From NCBI RefSeq assembly GCF_048771995.1, contig NC_133059.1, forward strand, positions 2,779,001 to 2,843,000: 64,000 nt of DNA, written 5' to 3'. The position numbers and the translations under genes are program-made. Below the pieces are notes generated by a model. That model was not told the origin of the DNA, did not search any database, and was given only the letters and a program-made list of their open reading frames with translations. This DNA is from Taeniopygia guttata (taxonomy: Eukaryota > Chordata > Aves > Passeriformes > Estrildidae). Positions 1 through 64,000 of the stretch are shown here, one piece after another (within the stretch, counting starts at the first letter, position 1; each line of letters opens with the position of its first letter).

Positions 1-80
1 AATCCCGCCCGGAATTCCCAAAAATCCCCCCCGGAGCTGTCGGCGCCCCCGGCTGGACGCAAACCCGGCAGCGCCTCCAG
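1..80 (+). CDS. SIPA1L3: SIPA1L3 coding exon, partial at left edge
   Basis: The sequence reaches a consensus donor (CAG then GTGAGA) at 81. Reading from base 3 keeps an open frame ending GWTQTRQRLQ and leaves phase 0, which the next two proposed exons need. The true 5' boundary is not visible; the first 30 or so bases resemble intron repeat, so the exon may begin inside the window. I cannot align this peptide from memory. Confidence 0.5.
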
Positions 81-3000
81 GTGAGAGAAAATTCCCACAT
101 TTTTGGGGTAAAAACTCCAAATTTTGGTAAAAATTCTCTTTTTTGGTAAAAATTCCCTTTTTTGATTGAAAAATCCAAATTTTTGAGTAAAAATTCCCAT
201 TTTTTGGGGAAAAATTCTCAATTTTTTGGTTGAAAAAATCCCAATTTTTGAGTAAATATTTCCATTTTTCATGAAAATTCCCACATTTTTAGTTAAAATT
301 CCCAAATTTCCCTCAAATTCCCAAATTTCTGGGGTAAAAATTTCCTTTTTCTGTAATAATTCCCAAATTTTTGTAAAAGTCCCAATTTTGGGGGTAAAAA
401 TTCCCCTTTTTTTTGTTAAAAATTCCCAGGTGAGAGAAAATTCCCCAATTTCCCCAAATTTTGGGGTAAAAATTCCCATTTTTTGTAAAAATTCAGAATT
501 TTTTGTTAAAATTCCTAATTATTAGTACATTTCCCAATTTTTTGGTTGAACATTCCCAAATTTGAGGAGAAATTCCCGATTTTTGGGATGAAATTCCCAA
601 ATCTGGGTAAAAATTCCCAATATTTGGGTTGAAATTCTTATTTTTCCTTAAAATTTCCTAATTTTTGGTTAAAAATTCCCTTTCTCTGTTAAATTTTTGG
701 TTTTTTTATAAAAATACCCAAATTTGGGGTGAAATTGCCAATTTTTGGGCCAGAATTCCCATTTTTTTCATCTAAAATCCCTTTTTTTTGTTAAAAATTC
801 CCCTTTTTTGTTTAAATTTCCTATTTTTTCATTAAAAATTCTAATTTTTGTGTCAAAATTCTCATTTCTTGGTTAAAAATTTTTCAAATTTTTAGTAAAA
901 ATTCCCATTTTTGGGGTGAAATTTTCATTTTCCAGGCCCGGGCCCGCGGCTCCGAAATTCGGCCCCAAAATCTCCGGGAGAGGCTCCGGGGGAGAGGCCG
1001 GAATGTGAGAGAAAATGGGGGAAAAAATGGGGAAATTGGGAAAAATGGGAAAAAGTGGGGGAAATTGGGGGGAAATTGGGAAAAAGTGGCAAAAATTGAG
1101 GGAAATCGGGGGGAAAATGGGAAAAGTTGGGGAAAAAATGGGGGAAATTGGGAAAATTGGAGGGAAAATTGGGAAATTTGGGGAAATAATTGAAAAAATG
1201 GGGAAAATGGGGAACAATTGGGGGAAAATGGGGAAAATCGGGAAATTTGGGGGAAATTGGGGAAAATGGGAAATTGGGGGGGGAAATGGAGGGAATTGGG
1301 AAAAATTTGGGGGGAAAATGGGGAAAAATTGGGGAAATTGGGGAAAAATTGGAAAATTGGGGTAAAATTGGAAAAAATTGGGGAAAATTGGGGGAAATGG
1401 AAAAAATGGGTGAAAATGGGAAAAAATAGGAGGGAAATTGAGGAAAAAATGGGGGAAGTGGGAAAAATGTGAGAAATTTGGGAAAATGTGCAAAAAATGG
1501 GGAAAAATGGGGAAAAAATGGGGGAATTGGGGGAAATTGGAAAAAATGGGGGGGGAAATGGGGAAAAATGGGGGGAATTGGGCAAATTTGGGGAAAAATT
1601 GGGAAAATGGGAAAAATTGGGGAGAAAATGCGAAAAATCGGGGGGAAATGGGGGAAATTTGTGAAAATATGGGAAAAAATGGGGAAATCGGGAAAAAATT
1701 GGGAAAAATTGGGGGAATTGGGGGAGAAATGGGGGGAAAATGGGGAAAAATGGGGGAAATGGGGAAAAATGGGAAAAATGTAGAAAATTGGGAGAAATTG
1801 GGGAAAAGGGGGAAAATTGGGGGAATTTTAATTTGGGGGATTTTGCTGGGACTTTTTTGTTCTTATGGATTTTAATCAAATTTTGATGGATTTTTTTATC
1901 TTAATGAATTTTGATGGGATTTTCCTGAATTTTGAAGGGATTTATGTGGAATTTTAATGGGATTTTGATGTAATATTTATTAATTTTTGGGGGATTTTAA
2001 TGGGATTTTCATGGGATTTTAATGGGATTTTTTTTATTTTTCTGTGATTTTGATGGATTTTAATGGGATTTTTATGGATTTTTCTGTGATTTCCATGGAA
2101 TATTTGGAATTTTCGGCAGGCAGGTGAACGTTTTCGGGCAGCCGCGGCTTTGAATGAATTTTAATGGGATTTTAATCGAATTTTAATCAAGTTTGATAAG
2201 ATTTAACGGGATTTTAATCAGTTTTTATGGGATTTTAATGGGATTTTTTTTATTTTTCTGGGATTTTGATGGATTTTAATGGGATTTTGATGGATTTTTC
2301 CGTGATTTTTATGGAATATTTGGAATTTTCGGCAGGCAGGTGAACGTTTTCGGGCAGCCGCGGCTCCGGGCGTCGCTGCGGGACCTTCGCTCCCCCCGGC
2401 GCCTCCCGAAATCCTCCATCGAGGACGACCTCAAGCGCCTCATCCTGATGGACAATTCCTGCCCCGAGGCCGAGCCCGCCCCGGTGAGAGCGGAATTCCC
2501 GAATTTCCCAACATTCCCGAAATTCCCAGACCCAAAATGCAAAAAATCCCCAGGTTTTAGACAAAAAAACGGCAAAAAAATGGCAAAAAAATCCGATTTT
2601 TAGCCCCAGAAATGGAGAAAAATTGGATTTTTTTAGCCCCAAAAATGGGAAAAAATTGAATTTTTCTCCCTGAAATTCCCAAAGTTCCTGAAATTCCCAA
2701 AATTCCCGAAGTTCCTGAAATTCCCAAAATTCCTGAAGTTTTAGCCCCAAAAAATGGGAAAAAATGGTGACAATTTGGATTTTTTTAGCCCCAAAAATGA
2801 GGAAAATTGGGAATTTTCCCATGAAATTCCTAAAATTCCCAAATTTCCAGTTTTTCCATATTTTAGTGGGAAAATTCTGGAATTTCCCCTTTTTTCATAG
2901 AAAAAACTGCGGAATTTTCCATTTTTTATTGAAAAAAATCTGGAATTTTCCATTTTTTAATAGAAAAACACTGGAATTTCCTCATTTTTAACAGGAAAAA

Positions 3001-6000
3001 ATCGTGAATTTTCCTCATTTTTCCTGGAAAAAAATCTGGAATTTTCCATTTCTCACCATTCCAACCTCCGTCCTCCCTTGGGAATTCCGGAATTTCTCGG
3101 ATTTTCCCAGAAATTCCCGGATTTTTCCAAATTTTCACAGATTTTTTCGAATTCTCCTGGATTTTCCCGGATATTCCTGGAATTTCCCGGATTTTCCCGT
3201 AATTTTCCGGAATTTCCCAGATTTTCCAAGAATTTCCTGGAATTTTCCATAATTCCCAGAATTTCCCATATTTTCACGGATTTCCCAGAATTTTCTGAAA
3301 TTTCCCGTATTTTCCCAGATTTTCCCGTATTTTCCCAGAATTTCACGGATTTTCCCAGATTTCCCCGTATTTTCCTGTATTTTCCCGGAATTTCCCATAT
3401 TTTCTCGGATTTTCCCAGATTTTCCCGGAATTCCTGGATTTTCTGGATTTTCCCAGATTTTCCCCTATTTTTCCAGAATTTCCCATATTTTCCCAGATTT
3501 TCCCAGAATTTCCTGTAATTCCCAGATTTTCCCAGATTTTCCCGTATTTTTCCGTATTTCCCCTTATTTTCCCGTATTTTCCCAGAATTTCCCAGATTTT
3601 CCCATATTTTCCCAGATTTTCCCCTATTTTCCCAGAATTTCCCTGATTTTCCCCTATTTTCCCAGATTTTCCCAGATTTTCCCAGATTTTCCTGGAATTC
3701 CCAGATTTTCCCAGATTTCCCCAGATTTTCCCGTATTTTCCCAGAATTTCCCGGAATTCCCAGATTTTTGCCGATTTTCCCGTATTTTTCTGTATTTTCC
3801 CAGATTTTCCTGGAATTCCCGGATTTTCCCAGAATTTTGCAGATTTTCCCGTATTTTTCTGTATTTCCCGTTATTTTCCTGTATTTTCCCAGATTTTCCC
3901 AGATTTTCCCAGATTTCCCCGTAATTCCCAGAATTCCGTAATTCCGTAATTCCGTACTCCCTCTTTTTCCCGCAGCCGCTGCCGCGGACGCTGTCGGACG
4001 AGAGTCTCTGTGGGGGGCGGCGCCGGAGCCCCCAGAATTCCCAACATTCCGGGAATTTCGGGAATTTCGGGAAGAGCTCCGGGAACTCCGGGAGTTCCGG
4101 GAATTCCGGGAATTTCCCGGAGCCGTCGGGCGGCGGCCGCAGCAGCCGGAGCGGGCGGAGAGCGGCCGATGGGAGCCGAGGTGGGAATTCCGGAATTTCG
4201 GGGTTTTTTGGGAATTTGGGGGAAATCCGGGAATTTTGGGGAGGTTTGGGGGGAAATCCGGGAATTTTTGGGGATTTTTTTGGGATTTTTTGGGGGATTT
4301 GGGAATTTTTTTTTATTTTTCTGGGAATTTTTGGAGATTTTTGTGGATTTTGGGGGAAATTTGGGAATTTATTGGGAAATTTTTGGGGATTTTGGAATTT
4401 TTTTTGGGGGATTTTTGGGATTTGGTGGGGATTTTTTGGAAATTTGGGAATTTAAAGGGGATTTTTGGGAATTTCTGGGATTGATGGATTTGGGTTGGAA
4501 AATCAGCATTTTGGGGGGGATTTTTGGGTGTTTTTGGAGCATTTTCACCCAGATTTTTGGGATTTTGGGCTGGAATTTTTTGGGATGTTTTTGGGAATTT
4601 TTGGGCTTGATGGATTTGGGTTGGAAAATGGGAATTTTGAGCAGAAAAATAGGATTTTGGGTGGGATTTTGTGCAGAAAAATGGCATTTTTTGGTCATTT
4701 TTAACCCGGATTTTTTTGATTTTGGGGCATTTTGGGCTGGAATTTTTTGGGAATTGTTGGAATTGTTGGGAATTGTTGGGAATTGTTGGAATTTCGGGAA
4801 TTCCCTCCCCAGGCCCGGCGGCGCGGTTGGAGCCGGGGCTGTTCCCGCTGCCGGATTTGGGGATTTTGGGGGGAAAAATGGGAATTTTGGGGCATTTTCA
4901 ACCACATTTTTTGGGATTTTGGGCTGGAATTTTTTTGGGAATTTTTTGGGAATTCTGGGAATTTTGGGATTGATGGATTTGGGTTGGAAAATGGGAATTT
5001 TGGGTGGGAAAAACGGTATTTTTGGGGTATTTTTGGAGCATTTTCATCTGTTTTTTTTTTATTTTTGGACAGAATTTTTAGGGAATTTTTGGGGATTTTG
5101 GAATTTTTGGGATTGTTGGGATTTTAGAATGGGAATTTTTTGGATTTTGGGGTGGAATTTTTGGGAATTTTGGGAATTTTTGGGATTGATGGATTTGGGG
5201 GGATTTTGGTTGAAAAAAATGGGATTTTCTGGGGGATTTTAGGGAAAAATGGGAATTTTGGGGCATTTTCTGCCACATTTTTTGTGGTTTTTTTGGATTT
5301 TGGGCTGGAATTTTTGGGGAATTTTTTGGGAATTGTTGGGAATTTTGGCATTGATGGATTTGGGTGGGATTTTGAGTAGAAAAATGGGATTTTGGATGGA
5401 TTTTGGGTGGAAAAACGGGATTTTTTTTTCATTTTTAACCCAGATTTTTTTGATTTTTGGGTATTTCGGGCTGGAATTTTTTGGGAATTTTTTGGGAATT
5501 GTTGGAATTGTTGGAATTTCGGGAATTTCCCCCCCAGGCCCGGCGGCGCGGTTGGAGCCGGGGCTGTTCCCGCTGCCGGACGCGGCCGGACTGGAATGGG
5601 CGACGCTGGTGAGCGCGGCCAGAGCCTACGAGGGTGAGAGAGAAAATCGGGGCAAAAAACGGGGATTTCGGGAAAATTGGGGGAAAAACGCTGGTTTCGG
5701 GCAAATTGGGGCAAAAAGCAGCGGTTTTGGGGGAATTGGGGCAAAAAGTGGCGGTTTCGGGCAAATTGGGGAAATTGGGGATTTGGGAAAATTGAGGAAA
5801 ATCGGGGATTTTGGTGAAATTTGGGGGTTTGGGGGAAATTTGGGGGATTTTGGGGAAATTCGGGAGTTTTGGAAAAATTGGGGATTTTGGGAAAATTGGG
5901 GATTTTGGGAAAATTGGGGATTTGGGGAAATTGGAGGAAAATCGGGGATTTTGGGGAAATTGGGGATTTTGGGAAAATTGGGGAGAAAATCGAGGATTTT

Positions 6001-9000
6001 GGGAAAATTTGGGGCGAAATCGGGGATTTTGGGGACATTTGGGAATTATTTGGGAAATTTGGGGGAAAAAATGGGAATTTTGGGGATAAAAATGGGAATT
6101 TTGGGGATAATTTTGGGGTGATTTGGGGCTGATTTTGGGGTAATTTTGGGGTGATTTTGGGGTAATTTTGGAGTGATTTTGGGATAATTTGAGGCTGATT
6201 TTGGGGTGATTTGGGACTGATTTGGTGCTGATTTTGGGGTAATTTCATGCTGATTTTGGGTTGATTTTGGGGTGATTTGGGGCTGATTTTGGGGTATTTT
6301 CGTGCTGATTTTGGGGTAATTTGGGGCTGTTTTGGTGCTGATTTTGGGGTGATTTGGGGCTGTTTTGGGGTGATTTTGGGGCTGATTTTGGGGATAATTT
6401 GGGGCTGATTTGGGGCTGATTTTGGGGTATTTTCGTGCTGATTTTGGGGTGATTTGGGGCTGTTTTGGTGCTGATTTTGGGGCTGATTTGGGGCTGATTT
6501 TGGGGTAATTTGGGGCTGATTTGGTGCTGATTTTGGGGCTGATTTGGGGCTGATTTTGGGGTAATTTGGGGCTGATTTGGTGCTGATTTTGGGGCTGATT
6601 TTGGGGTGATTTGGGGCTGATTTGGTGCTGATTTTGGGGTGATTTTGGGGCTGATTTTGGGGCTATTTTGGGCTGATTTTGGGGTAATTTGGGGCTGATT
6701 TTGGGGTAATTTGGGGCTGATTTTGGGCTGATTGTGGGGTAATTTCATGCTGATTTTGGGTTGATTTTGGGGTGATTCGGGGCTGATTTTAGGGATAATT
6801 TCGGGCTGATTTGGGGCTGATTTTGGGGTAATTTGGGACTGATTTTGGGGTGATTTTGGGGTAATTTGGGGGTGATTTGGGGCTGATTTTGGGGTGATTT
6901 GGGGCTGATTTTGGGGATAATTTCGGGCTGTTTTGTTGCTGATTTTGGGGTAATTTCGGGCTGTTTTGGTGCTGATTTTGGGGTAATTTCGTGCTGTTTT
7001 TGGGCTGATTTTGGGGTGATTTGGGGCTGATTTGGGGCTGATTTTGGGGTGATTTGGTGCTGATTTTGGGGTGATTTGGGTCCGATTTGGGGCTGATTTT
7101 GGGGTAATTTGGGGCTGATTTTGGGGATATTTTTGGGACATTTTGGGGATAATTTTGGGACATTTCTGGGACATTTTGTTGCTGATTTTGGGGTAATTTT
7201 GGGCTGTTTTGGGTCCCGCAGTGCAGCGCGCCGTCTCGCTGTTCTCCCTGAGCGATCCCGCCCTGAGCCCGGAGCCGCCCCCCGCCCCTCCCCCACCCCC
7301 CCGGCCGCCCCTCCCCCCACTCAGGTACCCAACATCCAAATTTGGGGGAAAAAAATTGGATTTTTGGGGAAAAAATTTGAAATTTTTTTGGAGAAAAAAA
7401 AAGAATTTTGGAGAAAAAAATTGAATTTTTGGGGAAAAAAATTTGAATTTTGGGGGGATTTTGTCGGGTAAAAATTGAATTTTGGGGGAAAAAATTTGAA
7501 ATTATGGGGTGAAAAAATCGAATTCTTGGGGAAAAAAATTGAATTTGGGGGGACTTTGTTGGGTAAAAATTAAATTTTGGGGTAAAAATTAAATTTTGGA
7601 GAAAAAAATTGAAGTTTTGGGGAAAAATGCAAATTTGGGGGGGAAGTTGAATTTTGGGGGAAGAAAAATTGAAATTTTGGGGGGAAAATGAATTTTGGGG
7701 TAAAAAAATCGAATTCTTGGGGAAAAAAATGAATTTGGGAGGATTCTGTGTGGTAAAAATTAAATTTTGGGGGTAAAAATTGAATTTTGGGGGAAAAATG
7801 CAAATTTGGGGGGAAGTTGAATTTTGGGGGGAAAAAATTGAAATTTTGGGTAAAAAATTTAAATTTGGGGGGGAAAAACCTGAAATTTGGGGGAAAAAAA
7901 TTGTATTTGGGGAAAAAATAAAAGTTTTGGGGAGAAATGAATTTGGGAGGATTTTGTTGGGTAAAAATTAAATTTGGGGGGCAAAAATTGAAATTTTTTT
8001 GGGAATTTCAGGGTGGGAAATGTAAAATCCGGGGCAATTTTAGGGTGAAAAATTCAATTTTTTGGAAGATTTTTGTGAGTTTAGAGCAGGAATTTGGGGC
8101 AAAAATGGGGATTTTTTTCAGTCTGGCTTTTGGGACCATTTTTAAAATTTTTTTGGGTAATTTTTGGATAATTTTTGTTTTGTTTTTTTCATTTTTTCCC
8201 CCAAAATTTGTCTGCCAGCCCCTGCCCCGCCCCCCTGGACCTGCCGGGAAAAGTTTCCCAATTGGAGGCGATGCTGAAGCAGCTCCACAGCGACCTGGAA
8301 AAGGTGAGAAAAACCCCAAATCCCCACTTTTCACCCCCAAATCCCCTCCAAAAATCATTCTTCCACCCGAAAATAACATTTTCCCAAAAAATTCCCATTT
8401 ATTCCCAAAAAACCCAACATTATTCCCTAAAAATTGGGATTTTTTTTTCCCTAAAAATTCGGATTTTTTTCCCTAAAAATTCTGATTTTTTTTCCCTAAA
8501 AATTCACTTTTTTTCCCCATAAAAATCCACATTTATTTCCAAAAAAATTTCCCATTATTCCCTAAAAATCAGCATTAATCCTACAAAAAAATTCTGATTA
8601 GTCCCTAAAAATTCACATTTTTTTTCCCCAAAAATCCCTCCAAAAATCCATTCTTTCCTCCAAAAATGACATTTTTTGGAAAAAAATAAAATTTATTCCC
8701 TAAAAAACCAGCATTATTCAAAAAAAATTCCGTAGAAAAATCTCAAATTTTTCCCACCAAATCCGCATTTTTGCCATAAAAATCCCATTTTTTTTACAGA
8801 AAATCCTAATTTTTTCACTTAAATTTTACCAAAAATTGGGAATTTCCCAAATTCCCATTTTCCACCCAAATCTCCAAAACCCCAAAAAATTCCCGAAAGT
8901 ATCTTAAAAAGATCTCAAATTTTTGCCCTAAAATCCCCATTTTTTTGCCAAACATCGCAATTTTTTCCCCCAAAAATCGGGAATTTTCCCCAAATTCCCA

Positions 9001-11892
9001 TTTTCCACCCAAATCCCAAAAATTCCCAAAAATTCCCCCCAAAAATCTCATTTTTCCTTCAAAAAATCCCCATTTTCTCACCAAAAAATCCCCATTTTTT
9101 GTCGAAAAAATCCACATTTTTTGCCCTAGAAACCCCATTTTTTCACCAAAATTCTCCATTTTTTTTTCGGAAAATTCCCAAAAATCCGGGAAATTCCCCC
9201 AAAATCCGTGAATTTCCCCCAATTCCGTATTTTCCCCGCAGGAGAAGCAGGACAAGGAGTTCCTGCAGGCGGAGGTGGCGTCGCTGCGGCAGAACCCATT
9301 TTTTCTCAAAAAGTCCTAATTTTTTCCCCAAAAGTCAGGAATTTTCCCCAAATTCCCATTTCTCACCCAAATTCACAAAAAACTCCCAAAATTCCTCAAA
9401 AAATCTCAGTTTTTCTTCCAAAAAATCTCATTTTTCTTCCAAAAAATCCCATTTTTTTGCCGAAAAATCCACATTTTTTGCCCTAGAAACCCCATTTTTT
9501 CACCAAAATTCCCCATTTTTTTTCCCTAATTTTCCCAAAATCCATTAATTTCCCCCAATCCCATTTTTCCCCGCAGGAGAAGCAGGACAAGGAGTTCCTG
9601 CAGGCGGAGGTGGCGACGCTGCGGCAGAACCAAATCCCCAAAAATCTCCAAATTTTCCCATTTTTTGCCAAAATGTCCCAATTTTTTCCCCAAAAAATCG
9701 GGAATTTTCCCCAAATTCCCATTTTTCACCCAAATCCCAAAAATTCCCCAAAAAATATCATTTTTCTACCAAAAAATCCCATTGTTTTGCAAAAAAATCC
9801 CCATTTTTTGCCAAAAAATCCACATTTTTTGCCCTAGAAACCCCATTTTTTCACCAAAATTCCCCATTTTTTCACCAAAACTCCCAATTTTTTTTTTCTG
9901 AAAATCCCCAAAATCCGTGAATTTCCCCCCAATCCGTTTGTTTCCTCCCAGGAGAAGCAGGACAAGGAGTTCCTGCAGGCGGAGGTGGCGTCGCTGCGGC
10001 AGAACCCATTTTTTGCCAAAAAGTCCTAATTTTTTCCCCAAAAAATCGGGAATTTCCCCCAAATTCCCATTTTCCACCAAATTCCCAAAAAACTCTTTAA
10101 ATTCTCCCCAAAAAATCTCATTTTTCTTCCAAAAAATCTCATTTTTCTTCCAAAAAATTTCATTTTTTTGCCGAAAAATCCACATTTTTTGCCCTAAAAA
10201 CTTCATTTTTTCACCAAAACTCCCCATTTTTTCGCTCCGAATTTCCCAAAATCCGGGAATTTTTCCCAAAATCCCATTTTTTCCCCCCAGGAGAAGCAGG
10301 ACAAGGAGTTCCTGCAGGCCGAGGTGGCGTCGCTGCGTCAGAACCCATTTTTTGCCAGAAAGTCCTAATTTTTTCCCCAAAAATCGGGAATTTTCCCAAA
10401 ATTCCCATTTTCCCCCAAATTCCCAAAAAACTCCAAAAATTCCCCCAAAAAATCTCATTTTCCTTCCAAAAAATCCCATTTTTTTGCCGAAAAATCCCCA
10501 TTTTTTTTGCCGAAAAATCCCCATTTTTTGCCCTAGAAACCCCATTTTTTCACCAAAACTCCCCATTTTTTCGCTCCAATTTTCCCAAAATACAGGAATT
10601 TTCTCCCAATTCCGTATTTTCCCCCAGGAGAAGCAGGACAAGGAGTTCCTGCAGGCGGAAGTGACAACACTGTGGCAGAACCGAATCCCCAAAAAGCCCC
10701 AAAATTCCCCATTTTTTGCCAAAAAGTCCCAATTTTTTTCCCCCAAAAATCGGGAATTTTCCCAAAATTCCCATTTTTCCCCAAATTCCCAAAAAACTCC
10801 TAAAAATTCCCCAAAAAAATCTCATTTTCCTTCCAAAAAATCCCATTTTTCTTCCAAAAAATCTCATTTTTATTCCAAAAAAACCCCCATTTTTTGCCAA
10901 AAAATCCACATTTTTTGCCCTAAAAACCCCCATTTTTTCACCTAAAAACTTCATTTTTTCACCAAAACTCCCCATTTTTTCGCTCCGATTTTCCCAAAAA
11001 TCCGTGAATTTCCCCCAAATCCGTTTGTTTCCCCCCAGGAGAAGCAGGACAAGGAGTTCCTGCAGGCCGAGGTGGCGTCGCTGCGGCAGAACCAAATCCC
11101 CAAAAATCTCCAAATTTTCCCATTTTTTGCCAAAATGTCCCAATTTTTTCCCCAAAAATCAGGAATTTTCTCCAAATTCCCATTTTCCCACCAAATCCCA
11201 AAAAACTCTTTAAATTCTCCCCAAATAATCTCATTTTTCTTCCAAAAAATCCCCATTTATTTGCCGAAAAATTCACATTTTTTGCCCTAAAAACTTCATT
11301 TTTTCACCAAAATTCCCCATTTTTTCACCAAAACTCCCCATTTTTTTGCTCCGATTTTCCCAAAATCCGTGAATTTCCCCCAATTCCGTTTGTTCCCCCC
11401 CAGGAGAAGCAGGACAAGGAGTTCCTGCAGGCGGAGGTGGCGTCGCTGCGGCAGAACCCATTTTTTGCCAAGAAGTCCTTATTTTTTTCCCCAAAAATTG
11501 AGAATTTCCCCCAAATTCCCTATTTTCACCCAAATCCCAAAAACCTCCCAAAATTCTCCCCAAAAAATCTCATTTTTCTTCCAAAAAATCCCATTTTTAG
11601 GCCGAAAAATCCCCATTTTTTGCCGAAAAATCCACATTTTTTGCCCTAGAAACCCCATTTTTTCACCAAAATTCCCCATTTTTTCGCTCCAATTTTCCCA
11701 AAATCCGTGAATTTCCCCCAATTCCATATTTTTCCCCCTTAGGAGAAGCAGGACAAGGAGTTCCTGCAGGCGGAGGTGGCGTCGCTGCGGCAGAACAATC
11801 GGCGGCTGCAGCGGGAGTCGAGTTCGGCCGCGCGGCAGCTCCGGCGCTTCGCCCGCATCTTCTCCGGAGCCCCGCCCCACCAGGAGCCATGA
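1..11892 (+). CDS. SIPA1L3: SIPA1L3, 3' part of the gene (8 exons seen)
   Basis: This is the C-terminal end of a SIPA1-family RapGAP scaffold protein, which in mammals acts on Rap GTPases at cell junctions and the cytoskeleton. Proposed coding exons: (?)-80, 936-1004, 2340-2483, 3976-4180, 5538-5633, 7222-7324, 8219-8303, 11743-11892. Every junction has an AG acceptor and GT donor with matching phase; coding length from base 3 is 930 bases, 310 codons with the stop. Signature peptides match the family: VNVFGQPRLRASLRDLRSP, SIEDDLKRLILMDN, RTLSDESLCGGRR, LFPLPDAAGLEWATLV, QRAVSLFSLSDPALSP, and a C-terminal coiled coil from KVSQLEAMLKQLHSDLEK through EKQDKEFLQAEVASLRQNN. QRAVSLFSL-DPALSP points to SIPA1L3 rather than L1 or L2. 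The RapGAP and PDZ domains lie left of the window. The first two exons are less certain than the rest. Introns are tandem repeats throughout. Confidence 0.87.
81..935. repeat. AT-rich degenerate tandem repeat, SIPA1L3 intron
   Basis: About 20-bp degenerate units alternate TAAAAATTCCC with runs of T and TTTGGGG. No coding sequence or regulatory site stands out. The array ends at a pyrimidine tract and AG at 934-935. Confidence 0.7.
936..1004 (+). CDS. SIPA1L3: SIPA1L3 coding exon (69 bp)
   Basis: A GC-rich island of 23 codons between an AG at 934-935 and a GTGAGAG donor at 1005. It reads ARARGSEIRPQNLRERLRG and onward with phase 0 at both ends, matching the phase of the following exon. It is the only non-repetitive sequence between 81 and 2100. 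No family motif was recalled here, so the call rests on splice sites, phase and composition. Confidence 0.55.
1005..2123. repeat. Purine-rich GGGAAAAATTGGGG array then ATTTTAATGGG array
   Basis: From 1005 to about 1830 the + strand is almost pure G, A and some T in units near 12-16 bp. From 1830 the unit changes to GGGATTTTAATGGG-like sequence. Long open frames on both strands are repeat translations (poly GKIGKMG or FPIFPPFP) and not genes. Confidence 0.85.
2124..2150 (+). repeat. Partial copy of the 5' edge of the next SIPA1L3 exon
   Basis: About 27 bases repeat the acceptor and first codons (VNVFGQPRL) of the exon at 2340, including the GGCAGGCAG acceptor context. The copy then runs into intron repeat without a donor. 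It sits 216 bp upstream of the intact exon. The flanking ATTTTAATGGG repeat is the same on both sides, so the duplication unit spans intron plus exon edge. Confidence 0.85.
2340..2483 (+). CDS. SIPA1L3: SIPA1L3 coding exon (48 codons)
   Basis: Begins after GGCAGGCAG and ends at the GTGAGAG donor at 2484; phase 0 at both ends. It encodes VNVFGQPRLRASLRDLRSP and SIEDDLKRLILMDN, a block strongly conserved in SIPA1L proteins. Third codon positions are mostly G or C. Confidence 0.92.
2484..3975. repeat. Intron array of TTTTCCCAGATTTTCCCG units
   Basis: 2484-3060 is a mixed repeat of AAATTCCC and TTAGCCCCAAAAATGG blocks. From 3060 to about 3950 it is a pyrimidine-rich array with a basic unit of 10-11 bp (TTTTCCCAGA, TTTTCCCGTA). 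It ends in the CTCTTTTTCCCGCAG acceptor. No coding sequence seen. Confidence 0.85.
3976..4180 (+). CDS. SIPA1L3: SIPA1L3 coding exon with in-frame repeat tract
   Basis: Starts after CCCGCAG and leaves phase 1 at the GTGGGA donor at 4181. It opens with PLPRTLSDESLCGGRR, the family's conserved phosphorylation-like motif. About 20 codons of low complexity follow, built from GN, GS and FG pairs, encoded by GGGAATTTCGGGAATTCCGG units. The same units fill the introns on both sides. It closes with an Arg/Ser/Gly-rich stretch. Mammalian SIPA1L3, as I recall it, has a longer non-repetitive segment here. Confidence 0.88.
4181..5537. repeat. Intron array with TTGATGGATTTGGGTTGGAAAA marker
   Basis: The basic unit is GGGAATTTTTGGG. 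A higher-order unit is marked by GGGATTGATGGATTTGGG, seen near 4478, 4606, 4968, 5184 and 5350, and also carries a GCATTTTCA element. It contains one partial exon copy, listed separately. Confidence 0.85.
4813..4855 (+). repeat. Partial copy of SIPA1L3 exon 5538-5633 with acceptor
   Basis: The sequence after CCCCAG at 4812 matches the first about 43 bases of the exon at 5538 (ARLEPGLFPLPD), then falls into repeat. It has no donor. It lies 725 bp upstream of the intact exon. Confidence 0.9.
5538..5633 (+). CDS. SIPA1L3: SIPA1L3 coding exon
   Basis: Enters in phase 1 after CCCCCAG and leaves in phase 1 at GTGAGAG. It encodes PAARLEPGLFPLPDAAGLEW followed by ATLVSAARAYE, the conserved family block that precedes the C-terminal coiled coil. 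Confidence 0.93.
5634..7221. repeat. Intron array, GGGGCTGATTTTGGGGTAATTT units
   Basis: 5634-6110 is GGAAATTGGGGATTTTGG repeat. From about 6110 to 7200 it is a very regular G/T-rich array of 18-22 bp units (GCTGATTTTGGGGTGATTTG). The other strand is open for over 300 codons, purely from repeat (QNQPQITPKSAPN). Confidence 0.9.
7222..7324 (+). CDS. SIPA1L3: SIPA1L3 coding exon, proline-rich
   Basis: Begins after GTCCCGCAG, enters in phase 1 and leaves in phase 2 at GTACCC. It encodes VQRAVSLFSLSDPALSPE, the clearest SIPA1L3 signature in the window. About 16 residues dominated by proline follow, where mammalian SIPA1L3 (as I recall) has a longer, more varied stretch. Confidence 0.93.
7325..8218. 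repeat. Intron array, GGGGAAAAAAATTGAATTTTGG units
   Basis: Purine-rich repeat with a unit near 20 bp to about 8040. A short T-rich stretch then leads to the TTTGTCTGCCAG acceptor. No gene seen. Confidence 0.85.
8219..8303 (+). CDS. SIPA1L3: SIPA1L3 coding exon, start of C-terminal coiled coil
   Basis: Enters in phase 2 and leaves in phase 0 at GTGAGA. It encodes SPCPAPLDLPGKVSQLEAML then KQLHSDLEK, matching the family's DLTGKV-QLE-MLKQLH-DL-K coiled-coil start. It sits where the strand composition flips from G-rich to C-rich. Confidence 0.93.
8304..9241. repeat. C/A-rich intron array before the last exon
   Basis: Degenerate CCCAAAAATTCCCATTTTTT and CCCTAAAAATTC units of about 20 bp. It passes directly into the array of last-exon copies at 9242. 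Confidence 0.8.
9242..11457 (+). repeat. Seven upstream copies of the SIPA1L3 last-exon acceptor edge
   Basis: Each unit holds a CCCCAG acceptor plus 54 bp encoding EKQDKEFLQAEVASLRQN or a close variant, then C/A-rich intron repeat. Copies: 9242-9295, 9577-9630, 9952-10005, 10291-10344, 10628-10681, 11039-11092, 11404-11457; the intact exon follows at 11743. Spacings are 335, 375, 339, 337, 411, 365 and 339 bp. After the Asn codon every copy reads into ACCC or ACCAAA rather than the exon's AATCGG, and none shows a donor. Copy 5 is the most diverged (TTLWQN). The 54-bp piece stays in frame in all seven. Confidence 0.95.
11743..11892 (+). CDS. SIPA1L3: SIPA1L3 last coding exon and stop
   Basis: Only this copy continues past RQN into NRRLQRESSSAARQLRRFAR and on to a TGA at 11890-11892. 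It matches the SIPA1L3 C-terminal coiled coil (mammals: RLQEESQAASEQLRKFAEIF as recalled). The final residues, GAPPHQEP, differ from the mammalian tail. Enters in phase 0 after a CCCTTAG acceptor. Confidence 0.93.
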   Translation, partial: EKQDKEFLQAEVASLRQNNRRLQRESSSAARQLRRFARIFSGAPPHQEP

Positions 11893-13060
11893 GACCGAAT
11901 TCTGGGAATTTTATGGAATTTTCTGGGATTTTCTGCATTTTCTGGAGTTTTCCGGGATTTTGGGCTCCTGGAATTGCAGAATTCCCATCGGAATTGGCGC
12001 TGCCGAAGCTTCGCCCGCATCTTCTCCGGGGCTGCGCCGCACCAGGAGCCCTGAGACCGAATTCCGGGAATTTTATGGAATTTTCCAGAAGTTTCTGGGA
12101 TTTTCTGGGAATTTTCCAGGATTTCGGGCTCCTGGAATTGCAGAATTCCCATCGGAATTGGCGCTGCCGAAGCTTCTCCCGCATCTTCTCCAGAGCCGCG
12201 CCGCACCAGGAGCCCTGAGCGGGAATTCCGGGAATTTTATGGAATTTTCCAGAATTTTCTGGAATTTTGGGATCTGGAATTTTGGGATTTCCCTCCTGGA
12301 ATTGGGACGGATTCCTTCGGGATTGGAGCTTTTCTGGGATCTTCTCCGGAGCCGCGCCCCACCTGGCACCCTGACTGGGATTTTCTGGAATTTTCTGGGA
12401 TTTTCCGGGAATTTTCCAGGATTTTGGGATCTTTGGGATCCGGGATTTGGGATTCTCCCCCCAGAATTGCAGAATTCCCATCAGAATTGGCGAATCGGCG
12501 CTGCCGGTGTCTCACCAGGATCTTCTCTGGAGCCACCCCCCAGCAGGAGCCCTGACCAGGAATTCCGGGAATTTTATGGAATTTTCCGGAATTTTCTGGA
12601 ATTTTCCAGGATTTTGGGATCCGGGATTTTGGGATTTCCCCCCTGGAACTGCAGAATTCCTATTGGAATTTTCAGGAATTTTCCGGGATTTTGGGATTCT
12701 TTGGGATCCACTGGGATTTTTTGGGATTCGGGATTTTGGGATTCTTTGGGATTCTTTGGGATTTCCCCCCTGGAACTGCAGAATTCCCATCAGGATTTTT
12801 GGGAATTCTCCGGGATTTTTGGATTCTTTGGGATTTTTTTGGGACCTGGAATTTTGGGATTCTTTGGATTTTTGGGCTCCAGGATTTTGGGATTTTCCCC
12901 CTGGAATTGCAGAATTCCCATTGGGATTTTCAGGAATTTTCCGGGATTTTGGGATTCTTTGGGATCTGTTTGGGATTTTTTTGGGATCCGGGATTTTGGG
13001 ATTTTTGGGGATTTTTGGGATCCGGGATTTTGGGATTTCCCCCCTGGAATTGGGACGGAT
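11893..13060 (+). repeat. 3' UTR array carrying copies of the SIPA1L3 stop region
   Basis: Four further copies of the exon's 3' end, encoding FARIFSGAAPHQEP-stop or decayed versions, end at TGA positions 12052, 12216, 12372 and 12553; the real stop is at 11890. Spacing is 162, 164, 156 and 181 bp. The units also carry CTGGAATTGCAGAATTCCCAT, which continues alone to about 13050. An 853-codon open frame across this region is repeat translation. Confidence 0.9.
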
Positions 13061-14600
13061 CCCTCAGGATCCAGAACATTCCCTGGAATTCCAGAACATT
13101 CCAGGAGGATCCAGAACTTTCCATGGAATCCCAGAACATTCCAGAACTTTCCAGGTGCTTCCAGAAACTTCAGCATTTTCCACAGAATTCCAGAACTTTC
13201 CATGGAATTCCAGAACTTTCCATGGAATTCCAGAACTTTCCAGAGGGGACCAAGAACATTCCTGGATGGATCCAGAATTTTCCATGGAATTCCGGAACTT
13301 TTCCAGACCCTTCCAGGTGCTTCCAGAAATTCCAGAACTTTTCATGGAATTCCAAAAATTCCAGAACATTCCACGGAATTCCAGAACTTTTCACGTAATC
13401 CCAGAAATTCCAGAATTTTCCATGGAATTCCAGAACTTTTCATGGACTTCCGGAACTTCTCCAATGGAATTCCAGAACATTCCAGAACTTCCAGGTGCTT
13501 CCAGAACTTCTCACGGAATTCCAGAACTTCCCATGGAATTGAAAAAATTCCAGAACTTTTTATGGAATTCCAGAAATTCCAGAACTTTCCAGGTGCTTCC
13601 ACAGGGATCCAGAACTTTCCACAGAATTCCAGAATTTTCCACGGACTTCCAGAACTTTTCCAATGGAATTCCAGAAATTCCAGAATTTTCCATGGAATTG
13701 CAAAAATTCCAGAACTTTTTATGGAATTCCAGAAATTCCAGAACTTTCCATGGAATTCCAGAACTTTCCAGGTGCTTCCACAGGAATCCAGAATTTCCCA
13801 CGGAATTCCAAAACTTTCCACAGAATTCCGGAACTTTTCCAATGGAATTCCAGAACTTTCCACAGAATTCCAGAACTTTCCATGGGCTTCCAGAAATTCC
13901 AGAAATTTCCACGGAATTCCAGAATTTTCCACGGACTTCCGGGAACTTTTCCAATGGAATTCCAGAACTTTCCACATCGTTCCAGAACATTCCAAAACTT
14001 TCCACGGAATTCCAGAACTTTTAATGGAATTCCAGAAATTCCGGGACCTTCCAGGTGCTTCCAGAACTTTCCACAGAATTCCAGAACTTCTCCCACAGAA
14101 TTCCAGAACTTTTTATGGGCTTCCAGAAATTCCAGAACTTTCCACGGAATTGAGAAAATTCCAAAACTTTCCACAGAATTCCAGAACTTTCCACGGGCTT
14201 CCAGAAATTCCAGAATTTTCCATGGAATTCCAGAATTTTCCACGGACTTCCGGGAACTCTTCCAATGGAATTCCAGAACATTCCAGAACTTTCCACGGAA
14301 TTCCAGAACTTTTCATGGAATTCCAGAACTTCTCACGGAATTCCAGAAATTTCGGGACCTTCCAGGTGCTTCCAGAACTTTCCATGGAATTCCAGAACTT
14401 TCCAGGTGCTTCCAGAAACTTCCAGAACTTTTCATGGAATTCCAGGAATTCCAGAACATTCCATGGAATTCCAGAACTTTTTATGGGCTTCCAGAAATTC
14501 CAGAACTTTCCATGGAATTGAGAAAATTCCAAAACTTTTCATGGAATTCCGGAACTTTCCGTGGAATTCCGGAACCTTCCGGAGGGTCTTAGGCCCCTCC
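13060..14600. repeat. CCAGAACTTTCCATGGAATT minisatellite
   Basis: A 1.5-kb array of units near 15-20 bp (GAATTCCAGAACTTTCCACG), with a longer-range marker CTTCCAGGTGCTTCCAGAA. It is open in several frames on both strands because stops are rare in the unit. Probably SIPA1L3 3' UTR or just downstream. Confidence 0.9.
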
Positions 14601-14639
14601 CCCCCCCCCCGGAATTCCTGGATTTTTTGGGAACAGGGG

Positions 14640-15960
14640 GAGGAGCCCCGATCTTGAATTAATGAATAATAATTAATAATTCATGAGGAATAATTAATAA
14701 TAATTAAGGAGCTTCCAGGCACTTTCATCCCCAAAAAAAATTCCTTAAATTTTTTTTTTTAAATTCCCTAAAATATCCTAAAATTTTCCTTAAAAATTCC
14801 CGAAAAATTCCTTTTAAATCCCCCCCCAAAAATGACTCAAAATCCCCCAAAAAATTCCCGAAAAATTCCTTAACATTCCTAAAAAAAATCCCAAAAATTC
14901 ATTTAAAAATCCCTGAAAAATTCCCTAAAAATTCCTTAGAAATTCCCAAAAAATCCCTAAAAATTCATTTAACAATTCCTAAAAAACCTCTTTAAAAATT
15001 CCAAAACATTCATTTAAAAATTCCTAAAATTTCCCCAAAAAATCAAAAAAAATTCCCAAAAAATCACTAAAAATTCCAAAAAATTTTAAGATCCTAAAAT
15101 ATTCCCAAAAAATTCCTTTAAAAATACAAAAAATTTAATTAAAAAAGTCCAACAAAATTCCCTAAATATTAAAAAATCATTTAAAATTCCCTCAAAATTC
15201 CTTTAAAATTCCCTCAAAATTTCCAAACAATTCTCAACAAATCCATTTTAAAATTCCTAAAAAATGCCCAAAAAATTCCCACAAAATTAATTTAAAAGTT
15301 CCTTTAAAATTCCCCAAAAATTAAAAATCCCCCAAAAATTCCATAAAAAAGACTTTAATTCCTTAAAAATTCCTGAATAATCCCTAAAAATTCCCGAAGT
15401 TCTTTAAGAATTCCTAAAAAATTCATTTAAAATTCAAAAGAAATTTAAAAAATTCTCTGAGAATTCCCTAAAAATTAATTTAAAAATTCCTAAAAATTTC
15501 CATAAAAATCGCTTTAATTCCTGAAAAATTCCCTTAAAATTCATTTAAAATTCCCCAAAAATTGCTTAAAATTCCTTTTCAAATTTCTGAAAAATTCCCT
15601 AAAAATGCCACAAAATTCCTAAGAAATCCCCCCAAAAATCCCTTAAAATTTCTTTAAAATTCAAAAAAATCTCTAAAAAATTCCTTTAAAAATTCCTTTA
15701 AAAAGCCCCAAAAATTCCTTAAAAATTCCATTAAAATCCCTTTAAAAATCTGTAAAAATTCCTTTAAAATCCCTAAAAAATTCCCTAAAATTCCCCAAAA
15801 AAACCCCTTAAAAGTCCCTTAAAAATCCCTGAAAAAATTCCTAAAAATTCCCTAAAAAATCCCTAAAAATAATTTTAAAAACTCCCTAAAAATCCCTAAA
15901 AAATTCCCTAAAATTCCCCAAAATTCCCTTAAAAAATCCCTAAAATTCCCTAAATTATTT
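14640..15960. repeat. AT-rich CCCTAAAAATTCC degenerate array
   Basis: Preceded by a short AATTAATAATTCATGAGG segment. Units are about 11-13 bp and quite diverged. No coding potential. Confidence 0.85.
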
Positions 15961-20170: not shown

Positions 20171-20175
20171 TGGGG

Positions 20176-30268
<10,093 letters not shown>

Positions 30269-30892
30269 GGCTGCGCGGCCACGCCCCTTCCCCATCCCCC
30301 TCATCCCATTGGTGCATCCACCCATCAATCATTCAAATCCACACTCTCATTGGTCAACACCCCCTAGACCCTCCAACGCTTTATTTCTATTGGTCAATCC
30401 TCTCTACCGCGCCCATTCTTTAGTCTATTGGTCCATTCGCTGTTAGACACGCCCTACTCGTCTTATTATTGGCTAATCCCCACTTTACCCCTCCTTTTCT
30501 CTCTTCCTATTGGTCAGCCCCAAATTTCCCCGCCTTTTACGCGCCTATTGGGTAGTTTTCTCTCCGTCCCGCCTTTTCTCGGTAGCTATTGGTTGGCTTT
30601 TAACACGTGACGCCATCCGGCGGCTCTGATTGGCCGCTCCCTCAGCGGTGGCGGCCCGTGAAGGTTCCAGAAGCGGCTCCGGTTCGGGCGGGCGCGGAGC
30701 CGTTCGGGGCTCCCGGTTCGGCCTCCCGGAGGCTCCCGGAGGCTCCCGGAGGGGCTCCCGGAGGGTCCCGGGGAGCTGCCGGGGGGAGCCGGGCCGTGCC
30801 CGGTGCTGCCGGTGCGGTTCCGGTGCGGTTCCGGTGCGGCGGTACCGGCGGGGCCCGGGCGGTACCGGCGGGGCCCGGGCGGTACCGGAGCC
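30269..30892. promoter_or_regulatory. Divergent POLR2I/TBCB promoter with nine CCAAT boxes
   Basis: The start codons are 624 bp apart on opposite strands. Nine ATTGG motifs (inverted CCAAT, the NF-Y core) start at 30308, 30349, 30389, 30427, 30468, 30509, 30547, 30588 and 30629, spaced 41, 40, 38, 41, 41, 38, 41 and 41 bp. Several units also carry a CGCCC or CGCCTTTT element. A CACGTGA E-box at 30604-30610 overlaps a TGACG half-CRE, followed by GCCATCCGG. No TATA box is seen. 30640-30890 is a GC-rich TBCB leader made of short direct repeats (GGAGGCTCCC, GGTGCGGTTCC, CGGTACCGGCGGGGCC). Confidence 0.85.
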
Positions 30893-41319
<10,427 letters not shown>

Positions 41320-43500
41320 GACATTCCCGGTTATCCCGGAATTATCCCGGAATTATCCCGGAATTATCCCGGAATTCCCGAATTCCCGGGATCCGCCCGG
41401 GGCTTCCCACAGCTTTTCCCGCTTTTTCCGGGGAAAAAAAGCGCCAAAATTCGCCGCTCTCGCCTCGTTTTGGGCAGGGGGAGGGACCGGAATTCACTCC
41501 GGGATTCACGAAATTCCCAAAATTTCTGCAGGGATTCCCGAAATTCCCAAAATTCCTGCAGGGATTCCCGAAATTCCCAAAATTCCTGCAGAGATTCCTG
41601 AAATTCCTCCCAGAATTCCCAAAATTCCTGCAGGGTTTCCCGAAATTCCCAAAATTCCTCCCGGGATTCACAAAATTCCTGCAGGGATTCACGAAATTCC
41701 CAAAATTCCTCCTGGGATTCCCAAAATTCCTGCAGGGATTCCCGAAATTCCTGCAGGGATTCCCGAAATTCCCTCCAGGATCCCAAAATTTCCCAAAATT
41801 CTTCCTGAGATTCCCAAAATTCCTCCAGGGATTCCCAAAATTCTTCCAAGGATTCCAAAAATTCCCTCCAGGATCCCAAAATTCCTCTTGAGATTCCCAA
41901 AATGATCCCAAAATTCCCTCCAGGGTCCCAAAATGATCCCAAAATTCCTGCCAAGATTCCCAAAATTCCTGCAGGGATTCCCAAAATTCCCTCCAAGATC
42001 CCAAAATTTTCCCTAAATTCCCTCCAGGATCCCAAAATTCCTCCCGGGAGTCCCAAAATGATCCCAAAATTCCGCCAGGATCCCAGAAATTCTCAGAATT
42101 ATCCCGGAATTCCCGAAATCCCCGGGATCCAACGGGGCTTCCCGCAGCTTTTCCCGCTTTTTCCGGGGAAAAAAAAGCGCCAAAATTCGCCTCGTTTTGG
42201 GCAGGGGGAGGGACCCAAATTCACTCCAGGATTCACGAAATTCCCAAAATTCCCAAAATTCCTGCAGGGATTCACGAAATTCCCGAAATTCCTCCCGGGA
42301 TTCCCAAAATCCCCTCCAGGATTCCCAAAATTCCCAAAATTCCTGCAGGGATTCCCGAAATTCCTCCCAGGATTCCCAAAATCCCCTCCAGGATTCCCAA
42401 AATTCCCAAAATTCCTGCAGGGATTCCCGAAATTCCTCCCAGGATTCCCAAAATCCCCTCCAGGATTCCCAAAATTCCCAAAATTCCTGCAGGGATTCCC
42501 GAAATTCCTCCCGGGATTCCCAAAATCCCCTCCAGGATTCCCAAAATTCCCAAAATTCCTGCAGGGATTCACGAAATTCCCAAAATTCCTCCCAGGATTC
42601 CCAAAATTCATCCCGGGATTCCCGAAATGATCCCAGAATTCCCTCCAGGATCCTGAATTATCCCAAAATTCCTGCAGGGATTTCCAAAATTCCCTCCAAG
42701 ATCCCAAAATTTTCCCTAAATTCCCTCCAGGATCCCAAAATTCCTCCCAGGATTCCCGAAATGATCCCAAAATTCCTCCAGGATCCCAGAAATTTTTGGA
42801 ATTATCCCGGAATTCCCGAAATCCCGGGATCTCCCGGGGCTTCCCGCAGCTTTTCCCGCTTTTTCCGGGGGAAAAAAGCGCCAAAATTCGCCGCTCCCGC
42901 CTCGTTTTGGGCAGGGGGAGGGACCGGAATTCACTCCAGGATTCCCGAAATTCCCAAAATTCCCAAAATTCCTGCAGGGATCCACAAAATTCCCAAAATT
43001 CCTCCCAGGATTCCCAAAATTCCTGCAGGGATTCACGAAATTCCCAAAATTCCCTCCAGGATCCCAAAATTCTTCCCAAGAGCAAAAAATTCTCTCCAGA
43101 ATCCCAAAATTCCTCCAGGGAGTCCCAAAATTCCTCCAGGATTCAAAAATTCCCTCAGGAATTCCCAAAATTCCTCCCAGGATTCCCAAAACTCCTGCAG
43201 GGATTCCCCAAATTCCTCCCAAGATCCCAAAATTTCCAGAATGATCCCAAAATTCCCCCCAGGATTCCCAAAATTCTTCCTGGGATTCCCAAAATTTTCC
43301 CAAAATATCTCCCGGGATTCCCAGATTTTCTCCTCGGATTTGCAAAACTATCCCAAAATTCCTCCAGGATCCCAAAATTCCTCCCAGGATCCCAAAATGA
43401 TCCCAGAATTCCCTCCAGGATCCCAAATTATCCCAAAATTCCCCAAATGATCCCAAAACAATCCCAAAATTCCCTCAGGATTCCCAAAATTCCCCCAGAG
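41320..43500. repeat. Downstream TBCB array, GATTCCCAAAATTCCTGCAGG units
   Basis: Basic unit GGGATTCCCAAAATTCCTGC, about 20-24 bp. A higher-order unit of about 700-740 bp contains a GC-rich insert, at 41395-41505, 42110-42225 and 42820-42935. It may include the TBCB 3' UTR. No AATAAA was noticed before about 43939. Confidence 0.9.
41395..41505. promoter_or_regulatory. E2F-like composite module, copy 1 of 3
   Basis: Contains TTTTCCCGC, then TTTTTCCGGGGAAAA, then GCGCCAAAA at 41441. TTTCCCGC and TTTGGCGC (here inverted) are both E2F consensus octamers. Copies 2 (42110-42225) and 3 (42820-42935) keep all three parts. Function is inferred from motif only. Confidence 0.4.
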
Positions 43501-43900
43501 TCTCCGGCCCTGCCCCACGTTGGGCGCCCAACGTGGGCGTGGCTTTGTGTGGGCGTGGCCCCACCATCGACCAATCAGAGCGCTCCTGAGGGCGCAGAAA
43601 GGGGCGTGGCCAATGCGCGGTCCAGCCCCGCCCCCTCTGGCCCCGCCCCCTGCCCAAAAAAGGCGCCAAAAGGTGAAAAAATTCGAGTTTTGGTCGTTTT
43701 TGGGGCAAACGGCGCCGACCAATCAGAGCGCAGGGATGGAGGGGGAGGGGCGGGGCTACGGGCGGCTCGGCCAATGGGGTGGCAGGGTGGGGGCAAGGGG
43801 CGGGGCTTGGGCATGGTCATCATAAGGGGTTATGAATATTAATGAGGGTGTAATGAGGGCGTGGCCAGGAGGAAAGGGGCGTGGTCGGGGTGGGGGAGGG
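43500..43900. promoter_or_regulatory. Orphan GC-rich island with CCAAT, GC-box and E2F motifs
   Basis: Non-tandem GC-rich DNA with CCAAT at 43571, 43610, 43719 and 43771; the first and third share CCAATCAGAGCG. There are many GGGCGTGGC, CCCCGCCCC and GGGGCGGGGC boxes, an E2F-like GGCGCCAAAA at 43662-43671, and a perfect 24-bp palindrome at 43514-43537. It looks like a housekeeping promoter, but I recognise no exon on either side. It sits between two convergent genes. Confidence 0.45.
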
Positions 43901-48345: not shown

Positions 48346-49690
48346 ACCCCCACCCCCTTCCAGCCCCTCCCCCGTCCGGCCCGGCCTGGCCAAAGTCTGG
48401 GCAAACGTCCCCGGCAACGGCCGAGCCCCTCCCCCGGCCAAATTCCGGCCACACGTTCCGGCGGTCACTCCGAATTCCGGCGGTCACTCCGAATTCCGAC
48501 CGGACATCCCGGCGGTCACTCCGAATCCCGGCCGCACATCCCGGTGGTCACTCGGAATTCCGGCGGTCACTCCGAATTCCAGCCGGACATCCCGGTGGTC
48601 ACTCGGAATTCCGGCGGTCACTCCGAATTCCGGCCGCACATCCCGGCGGTCACTCCAAATTCCGGCCGCGCATCCCGGCGGTCACTCCAAATCCCAGCTG
48701 GACATCCCAGCGGTCACTCTGAATTCTGGCCGGACGTTCCAGTGGTCACTCCAAATCCCAGCTGGACATCCCAGCGGTCACTCTGAATTCCGGCCGCGCA
48801 TCCCAGTGGTCACTCCGGAAGGGCCAAATTCCGGATGGACATCCCAGCGGTCACTCCGGAATGACCAAATTCCAGTGGTCACTCTGAAAAGGCCAAATTC
48901 CGACCGGACATCCCTGCCGGACATCCTGGTGGTCACTCTGAATTCCGGCCGGACATCCCAGCGGTCACTCTGGAAAGGGCCAAATCCCGGCGGTCACTCT
49001 GAATTCCGGCCAATTTCCGGCCGGACATCCCGGCGGTCACTCTGGAAGGGGCCAAATCCCGGCGGTCACTCCGAAAAGGCCAAATTCCACCGGGACACTC
49101 TGGAAAAGGCCGAAAATTCTGGTGGTCACTCCGAATTCCGGCCCGAAATCCCGGTGGTCACTCCAATTCCCGGCCGGACACCCCGGCGGTCACTCCGAAT
49201 TCCGGCCAATTTCCGGCCGGACATCCCGTCGGTCACTCCGAAAAGGCCAAACTCCGGAAAAGGCCGAAAATTCTGTCGGTCATTCCGAATTCCGGCCGGA
49301 AATCCCGGCGGTCACTCCAAATTCCGGCCAATTCCTGACCGGACATCCCGGCGGTCACTCCGGAATGACCAAACCCGGCCGGACGCGCTGGCGATCACTC
49401 CGAATTCCGGCCAATTTCCGCCCGGACATCCCGGCGGTCACTCTGAAATGGCCAAAGCCCGGCCGGAAATCCCGGCGGTCACTCCGAATTCCGGCCAATT
49501 TCCGCCCGGACATCCCGGCGGTCACTCCGAATGACCAAACCCGGCCGGAAATCCCGGCGGTCACTCCGAATGACCAAAGCCCGGCCGGACATCCCGTTGG
49601 TCACTCCGAAATGACCAAACCCAGCCGGACATCCCGTTGGTCACTCCGAAAAAGGCCAAAGTCCCGTCCGGCCGTCGCTCCCACGCCGCC
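48345..49690. repeat. CATCCCGGCGGTCACTCCGAATTC array
   Basis: 48345-48440 is GC-rich and non-repetitive. 48440-49660 has units near 32 bp built from CCGGCCGGACATCCCGGCGG and TCACTCCGAATT. It abuts the ARHGAP35 stop codon and is presumably its 3' UTR. Confidence 0.9.
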
Positions 49691-49691
49691 G

Positions 49692-62919
<13,228 letters not shown>

Positions 62920-64000
62920 CTAAAATCACCCCAAAATTCCCTAAAAATTCCCCAAATTCCCAAATTTCTGACCAGTGGCCTCGATGTACCCAAAAAAGAC
63001 CTCCTAAAATCCCAAAAAAAAATGCAGAATAACCTCAAAAAATGCCAAAAAAATGCCAAAAAAACCCGTAAAATGCCGAAAAAATCCCAAAAACTTCCCA
63101 AATTTTCCCAAAAAATTCCCCAAAAATTCCCAAAATCCGGAATTCTGAATGGTGGCCTCGATGTACTGGATTCAGCGCTCAATGAACCCAAAAAAACCCA
63201 AAAAATTGCGAAAAAATTCCTAAAAATGCCAAAAAACCCCCAAAAAAATTCCTAAAATCTCCCCAAAAGTCCCTAAAAATTCCCAAAATTCCCAAAAATT
63301 CCTGACAAATGGCCTCGATAAACCCAAAAAAACCCTCAAAAAATTCCCAAAAATCGCAAAAAAACCCCAAAAAAAGCAAAAAAAAACCCATAAAATGCCC
63401 TAAAACCCCCCAAATTTTCCCAAAAAATTCCCAAAATTCCCAAATTCCCGAATTCTGACCGGTGGCCTCGATGTACCCAAAAAAAAACCCCCAAAAATTG
63501 AAAAAAAATCCCAAAAAATGCCAAAAAAAAGCCAAAAATCCCCCATTAAATGCCAAAAAAATCCCAAAAAATTCCCAAAAAATTCCCAAAATTCCCGAAA
63601 TCCCGGAATTCCTGACCGGTGGCCTCGATGTACTGGATGCAGCGCTCGATGAAGACGGGGATGGGCCGCTCGGGGCTGACCACGCTGGCCCAAAAACCCC
63701 AAAAAAATCCCCAAAAAAAACCCCTAAAATCACCCCAAAATTCCCTAAAAATTCCCAAAAATTTCCTAAAATTCCCAAAATTCCAAGATTTCTGACCAGT
63801 GGCATTGATGGTGCCAAAAAATAACCCCAAAAAACTCCCAAAAATCGCTAAAAAGACCCCAAAAATGCCCAAAAACCCCATAAAATGCCCCAAACCCCCC
63901 AAAATTTCCCAAAAAATTCCCAAAAATTTCCCAAAAATTCCCAAAAATTCCCGGAATTCCAAAATTCCTGACAAATGGCCTCGATAAACCCAAAAAAACC
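62920..64000 (-). repeat. Continuation of the about 165 bp array to the window edge
   Basis: Further exon-edge copies have low ends at 62974, 63150 (longer, about 36 bp), 63308, 63460, 63617 (75 bp), 63797 and 63973. The array is not finished at the edge, so more copies, and possibly a still more complete exon, may lie beyond it. Confidence 0.9.

Follow-up and report, generated by a model that had tools for sequence, protein, structure and literature searches.

The multiplication of exon edges in adjacent introns was recently described as "exon stuttering" or sequence stuttering in the dot chromosomes of chicken (Hron et al. 2026, Genome Biol Evol evag038, PMC12954441). As reported in the main text of that paper, a lateral part of an exon is repeated together with its splice site, the median exon fragment comprises 36 bases, and the source is located at most 1 base from the exon border in over 90% of the cases. 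A total of 190 of the 5,572 annotated dot-chromosome introns were stuttered, and the repeats were reported not to cross into coding exons. The mechanism was left open there, and the word microhomology does not occur in the main text. Related features are minisatellites that occur as internal tandem repeats where exons and introns meet in segmentally duplicated human genes and that can alter splicing (PMC2812944), GC-rich avian genes with introns filled by tandem repeats (PMC6792250), and the GC-rich, gene-dense dot chromosomes of the complete chicken genome (PMC9974502). The locus described here shares traits with all of them, but exon edges as a part of the repeat unit are not described in the accessible text of the latter two papers.

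The window, which is the whole stretch of 64,000 bases of Taeniopygia guttata DNA that was analyzed, contains four genes:

Up to 11892, plus strand: SIPA1L3 (end of the gene), identified by Pfam SPAR_C over exons C and D.
20176-30268, minus strand: POLR2I, identified by RPB9 chain matches.
30893-41319, plus strand: TBCB, identified by TBCB chain matches.
From 49692 upwards, minus strand: ARHGAP35 (end of the gene), identified by a match to the ARHGAP35 RhoGAP domain.

Protein matches, comparison with human proteins, Pfam SPAR_C, open frames, and the splice consensus were used to assign gene identities and to place 25 exons. The positions of SIPA1L3 exons A and B were based on frame and splice consensus alone and those of exons E to H on frame continuity. 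This yielded 49 testable edges, with the 5' edge of the first SIPA1L3 exon, which is cut by the window, being excluded. The real exons are intact and have open frames, and GT or AG is present at every splice edge except the 5' side of ARHGAP35 exon a. Local tandem repeats fill the introns (679 TRF rows across the window). SIPA1L3 exon D (3976-4180) contains a 9-base tandem repeat with 7.3 copies at 4046-4114 in an open frame, so that a satellite may lie inside putative coding sequence. The start codons of POLR2I and TBCB are positioned head to head with 625 bases between them (30268-30893), perhaps sharing a promoter. A GC-rich, mostly non-repetitive block at 43495-43813 between TBCB and ARHGAP35 had no recognized product. 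Over the window (1-64000), the GC skew was strong, with a size of up to 0.84 and a sign that flipped between introns, and Rfam gave zero matches at the gathering threshold.

The outer 24 exonic bases of each edge were used as a probe against both strands of the whole window, allowing up to 5 mismatches. Adjacent copies were found at 13 of the 49 edges and at none of the other 36, and these were the same 13 edges that the first-pass annotation had named, while shuffled probes (20 each) gave on average 0 to 0.2 matches. The copies are direct and adjacent, start or finish at the exon border, and include flanking intron, as expected if, as had been proposed, a tandem duplication had one of its breakpoints within an exon. 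The arrays, with the copies next to the real exons designated as decoys, are the following:

2120-2149, plus strand: one copy of the acceptor edge of SIPA1L3 exon C (real exon 2336-2483).
4813-4855, plus strand: one copy of the acceptor edge of SIPA1L3 exon E (real exon 5538-5633).
9242-11457, plus strand: seven decoys of the acceptor edge of SIPA1L3 exon H, each including some 54 exonic bases (real exon 11743-11892).
12009-12555, plus strand: four copies of the stop edge of SIPA1L3 exon H, each comprising the end of the coding sequence with its stop codon and located downstream of 11892, where the real stop is.
23489-23699, minus strand: two copies of the acceptor edge of POLR2I exon 4 (real exon 23246-23320).
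33219-34595, plus strand: seven decoys of the acceptor edge of TBCB exon 2, the exonic part of which reaches some 94 bases (real exon 34707-34850).
35677-35710, plus strand: one copy of the donor edge of TBCB exon 3, GT lost (real exon 34931-35027).
36687-36746, plus strand: one copy of the acceptor edge of TBCB exon 4 with 60 exonic bases (real exon 37248-37439).
61821-63989, minus strand: donor-edge array of ARHGAP35 exon a (YIEATG) with 14 motif copies at 6 or fewer mismatches (best copy 62814-62895).
59335-61037, minus strand: six decoys of the donor edge of ARHGAP35 exon b (real exon 61358-61435).
58384-58889, minus strand: two copies of the acceptor edge of ARHGAP35 exon c (real exon 57789-57920).
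55571-57277, minus strand: four decoys of the donor edge of ARHGAP35 exon c (same real exon).
54441-54766, minus strand: two copies of the acceptor edge of ARHGAP35 exon d (real exon 54056-54161).

Eleven of the 13 edges are clearly intronic, one is the stop edge, and the status of ARHGAP35 a depends on the location of the real exon. By the 24-base test, 8 of the 21 introns were involved, or 9 of 21 when the motif copies of ARHGAP35 a are included. The copies were not distributed equally to both sides of the exons: 38 of 40 were situated transcript-upstream of acceptors or downstream of donors and of the stop, the orientation stated before, and both off-side copies belong to the ARHGAP35 a array, which had been given as the exception. 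Probes from the exon middle found adjacent copies for 2 of the 25 exons, each within long edge copies. Five further matches in the whole window, all with exactly 5 mismatches, were distant or on the opposite strand. At the first SIPA1L3 donor, which has only 4 exonic bases, an identical 20-base stretch occurs at 77-96 and 426-445, a possible fourteenth edge. No link of the copies to G-quadruplex motifs was seen, with a motif coverage on the richer strand of 0.01 to 0.32 in the nine copy-bearing introns (ARHGAP35 a>b included) versus 0 to 0.82 in the 12 others.

The screen of Hron et al. was approximated by blastn-short without dust filtering at a minimum length of 20 bases and a threshold of 42.1 bits. 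It departed from the published procedure in that soft masking was switched off, a high E-value was used, only matches within the same gene were retained, those with multiple sources were not discarded, and manual review was omitted; the introns searched comprised neither the stop edge nor those copies of ARHGAP35 a that lie upstream of exon a. Every one of the 28 matches of at least 42.1 bits was on the same strand and in the neighboring intron. Together, they account for 9 of the 13 edges and fall into 7 of the 21 introns. The exon border was reached by 26 of them, and the remaining two are inner pieces of TBCB copies, the edge pieces of which scored 36.2 bits. Another 26 matches, 20 of them proximal, were below 42.1 bits, and the copies of POLR2I 4 and of the TBCB 3 donor remained under this threshold. 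None of the downstream copies of ARHGAP35 a was among the BLASTn matches listed. One shuffle of the introns gave no match of 20 bases or more.

With respect to a direct, imperfect tandem of an exon edge plus splice site in the adjacent intron, an intact exon, introns full of local tandem repeats, and similar sizes of the exon fragments, the arrays agree with exon stuttering (PMC12954441). The kind of structure is thus already known. The first-pass annotation was true as an observation and right in outline as an interpretation, but its statement that no named description of the pattern existed has been overtaken by the 2026 paper. None of SIPA1L3, POLR2I, TBCB, and ARHGAP35 is named in the main text of Hron et al. 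(PMC12954441), but these genes may already be in the published list of 115 in its supplement. Two differences need to be considered. The portion of 7 of 21 introns, obtained without manual review, compares with 190 of 5,572 in chicken, but this window had been picked as striking and its density is no fair estimate. Moreover, one array is located at a stop codon, outside of an intron-only screen such as that of Hron et al. (PMC12954441). This stop-codon array and the least divergence of the exon-derived parts in 7 of 8 arrays are modest additions to the published description.

The junctions inside the exons indicate how the arrays may have been formed. A single interior junction is common to all copies in five arrays, those of ARHGAP35 b, both edges of ARHGAP35 c, ARHGAP35 d, and POLR2I 4. 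Because the copies share this junction, the exon was probably broken only once per array, followed by amplification of the unit, which refines the proposed repeated duplication. Two or three different junctions occur in TBCB 2 (at least two forms) and in ARHGAP35 a. The two forms in SIPA1L3 H are apparently related by a deletion. One founding junction and subsequent amplification is the simplest reading of the arrays. Whether microhomology may have caused the breaks inside the exons was considered by seeking intron sources at 12 of the 13 edges (ARHGAP35 a excluded). In this search, which had no control and in which the TBCB 2 junction was misplaced, with the fragment length given too long, microhomology at the junctions did not occur consistently. 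By eye, microhomology was about 5 bases at TBCB 2 and about 3 bases at ARHGAP35 b, and short or unclear at the remaining edges.

The sidedness of the copies follows from geometry. If a tandem duplication is to spare the reading frame, the extra copy has to end up on the intron side, and the position of one intact distal copy results from the fact that a copy can be real only if the remainder of the exon is attached to it. Sidedness supports tandem duplication, therefore, and not selection beyond keeping the exon.

The ARHGAP35 a array requires a separate evaluation. Its 14 motif copies comprise short, middle, and long fragments, and it runs to 63989, eleven bases short of the window end. Copies within the window flank the best copy on both sides, as had been noted before, but the best copy is itself probably a decoy. 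No acceptor adjoins this copy (62814-62895). The two long copies are both preceded by the same repeat stretch and lack an adjacent AG, the nearest one being located 24 and about 35 bases upstream, respectively, in a context that appeared weak by eye. Because the best copy is without an adjacent acceptor, the true exon is probably beyond base 64000 and both long copies are probably decoys. Alternatively, the copy at 62814-62895 could still be the real exon, since the frame from the AG 24 bases upstream of it is open. An exon boundary of human ARHGAP35 presumably falls after YIEATG. Residue 617 of human ARHGAP35 is within the first exon (PMC9995503), which fits a large exon, and the word "exon" does not occur in PMC6523970.

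The observations are very probably explained by exon stuttering through local tandem duplication with one breakpoint inside the exon, followed by amplification of the unit. Other origins of the arrays have to be weighed against this. Introns of this kind are hard to sequence and the arrays are known here from assembled sequence alone, so that a misassembly in low-complexity DNA might have multiplied the exon edges. Substitutions and indels, however, distinguish most copies from one another, and raw nanopore reads confirmed the same pattern for chicken PHF8 (PMC12954441), which makes an artefact very improbable. An equally slight chance is left to a transfer of exon sequence to the intron by repeated templated insertion or by gene conversion instead of tandem duplication: the exon parts indeed remain close to the real exon, but five arrays share their interior junction, flanking intron was copied too, no distal or inverted copy of at least 42.1 bits was present among the introns of the same gene, and such copies in the whole window appeared with the 24-base probes only at 5 mismatches.

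A function of the decoy banks, which may act on splicing as a buffer or a tuning device, either through titration of splicing factors or through alternative ends, would be indicated by the retention of GT or AG in 33 of 36 decoy splice sites, the dinucleotide being lost in TBCB 3, ARHGAP35 a at 63150, and ARHGAP35 b at 60359. Low divergence, however, leaves most dinucleotides intact by default. Four TBCB 2 decoys (33219, 33435, 33621, and 34509) and one ARHGAP35 d decoy (54453) are open in frame to the end of the real exon, which also agrees with a function, but in 18 of 23 decoy acceptors reading on meets a stop before that end, a stop would be included at each of the 10 decoy donors tested, which are those of ARHGAP35 b and c, and a one-base frameshift is present in three of the TBCB decoys. 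Most of the copies thus appear to be unused decoys. Coding selection on them is unsupported. At the splice edges, 30 differences to the real exon were counted, 28 of them classifiable as 14 synonymous and 14 not, and the stop-edge copies, which are untranslatable, had 16 synonymous and 14 other changes of 30, so that the synonymous share was alike. It exceeded the expected 0.27 at both kinds of edges, as changes in the real exon would cause. This comparison used the first 22 bases only for five TBCB 2 decoys, excluded ARHGAP35 a, and counted shared changes many times.

The divergence of the copies is the remaining argument for a function. When only decoys were compared in arrays with at least two of them (ARHGAP35 a excluded), divergence was lower in the exon fragment than in either flank for 7 of the 8 arrays, with POLR2I 4 as the exception (downstream flank, 0.083; exon fragment, 0.091); with the real exon included and one flank considered, it was lower in 8 of 8. 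In the stop-edge array, divergence was high throughout, 0.217 in the exon fragment versus 0.275 and 0.294 in the flanks. The lower divergence of the exon fragments weighs against simple drift unless sub-repeat turnover and search bias explain the difference, and they may do so: the portion of repeated 6-mers was 0.12 to 0.75 in the intron flanks versus 0 to 0.13 in the exon fragments, and the copies had been chosen by exon similarity, which biases the measure. The upstream flank of the ARHGAP35 c acceptor copies counts against the turnover account, since it is among the least repetitive (0.20) and differs by 0.169 versus 0.031 in the exon part. On the other hand, some intron bins were equally conserved, with a divergence of only 0.02 to 0.03 in the 40 bases next to the donor copies of ARHGAP35 c and of 0 in some bins of POLR2I and the ARHGAP35 c acceptor. 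On this evidence, functional decoy banks are improbable. Likewise improbable is an active preservation of the exon-derived parts in the splice-edge decoys, whether through conversion by the exon or through selection on splicing, with the stop-edge array not being preserved; stuttered introns would then contain maintained banks of decoy splice sites and offer a natural test of exon definition with the real pair outermost and the decoys innermost.

Exon stuttering by tandem duplication may have proceeded in these genes from introns that already consisted of unstable tandem repeats. A local tandem duplication beginning in the intron would occasionally end within the coding exon, so that the duplicated unit contained a part of the intron, the splice site, and the exon edge, and this unit would expand and mutate like other intronic satellites. 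Slippage or unequal exchange may have served as the copying step. Since the real splice pair lies outermost in each affected intron, its choice would call for exon definition: the decoys would be mostly unused, and the cell would recognize the real exon because the decoys have no opposite splice site. The stop-codon array suggests that the process acts on the DNA and does not need splicing.

A very recently named kind of genome instability is thus present in four neighboring genes, and its occurrence at a stop codon indicates that the arrays may arise independently of splicing. Many near-perfect decoy splice sites beside constitutive exons would allow a direct test of how the cell picks the right site.
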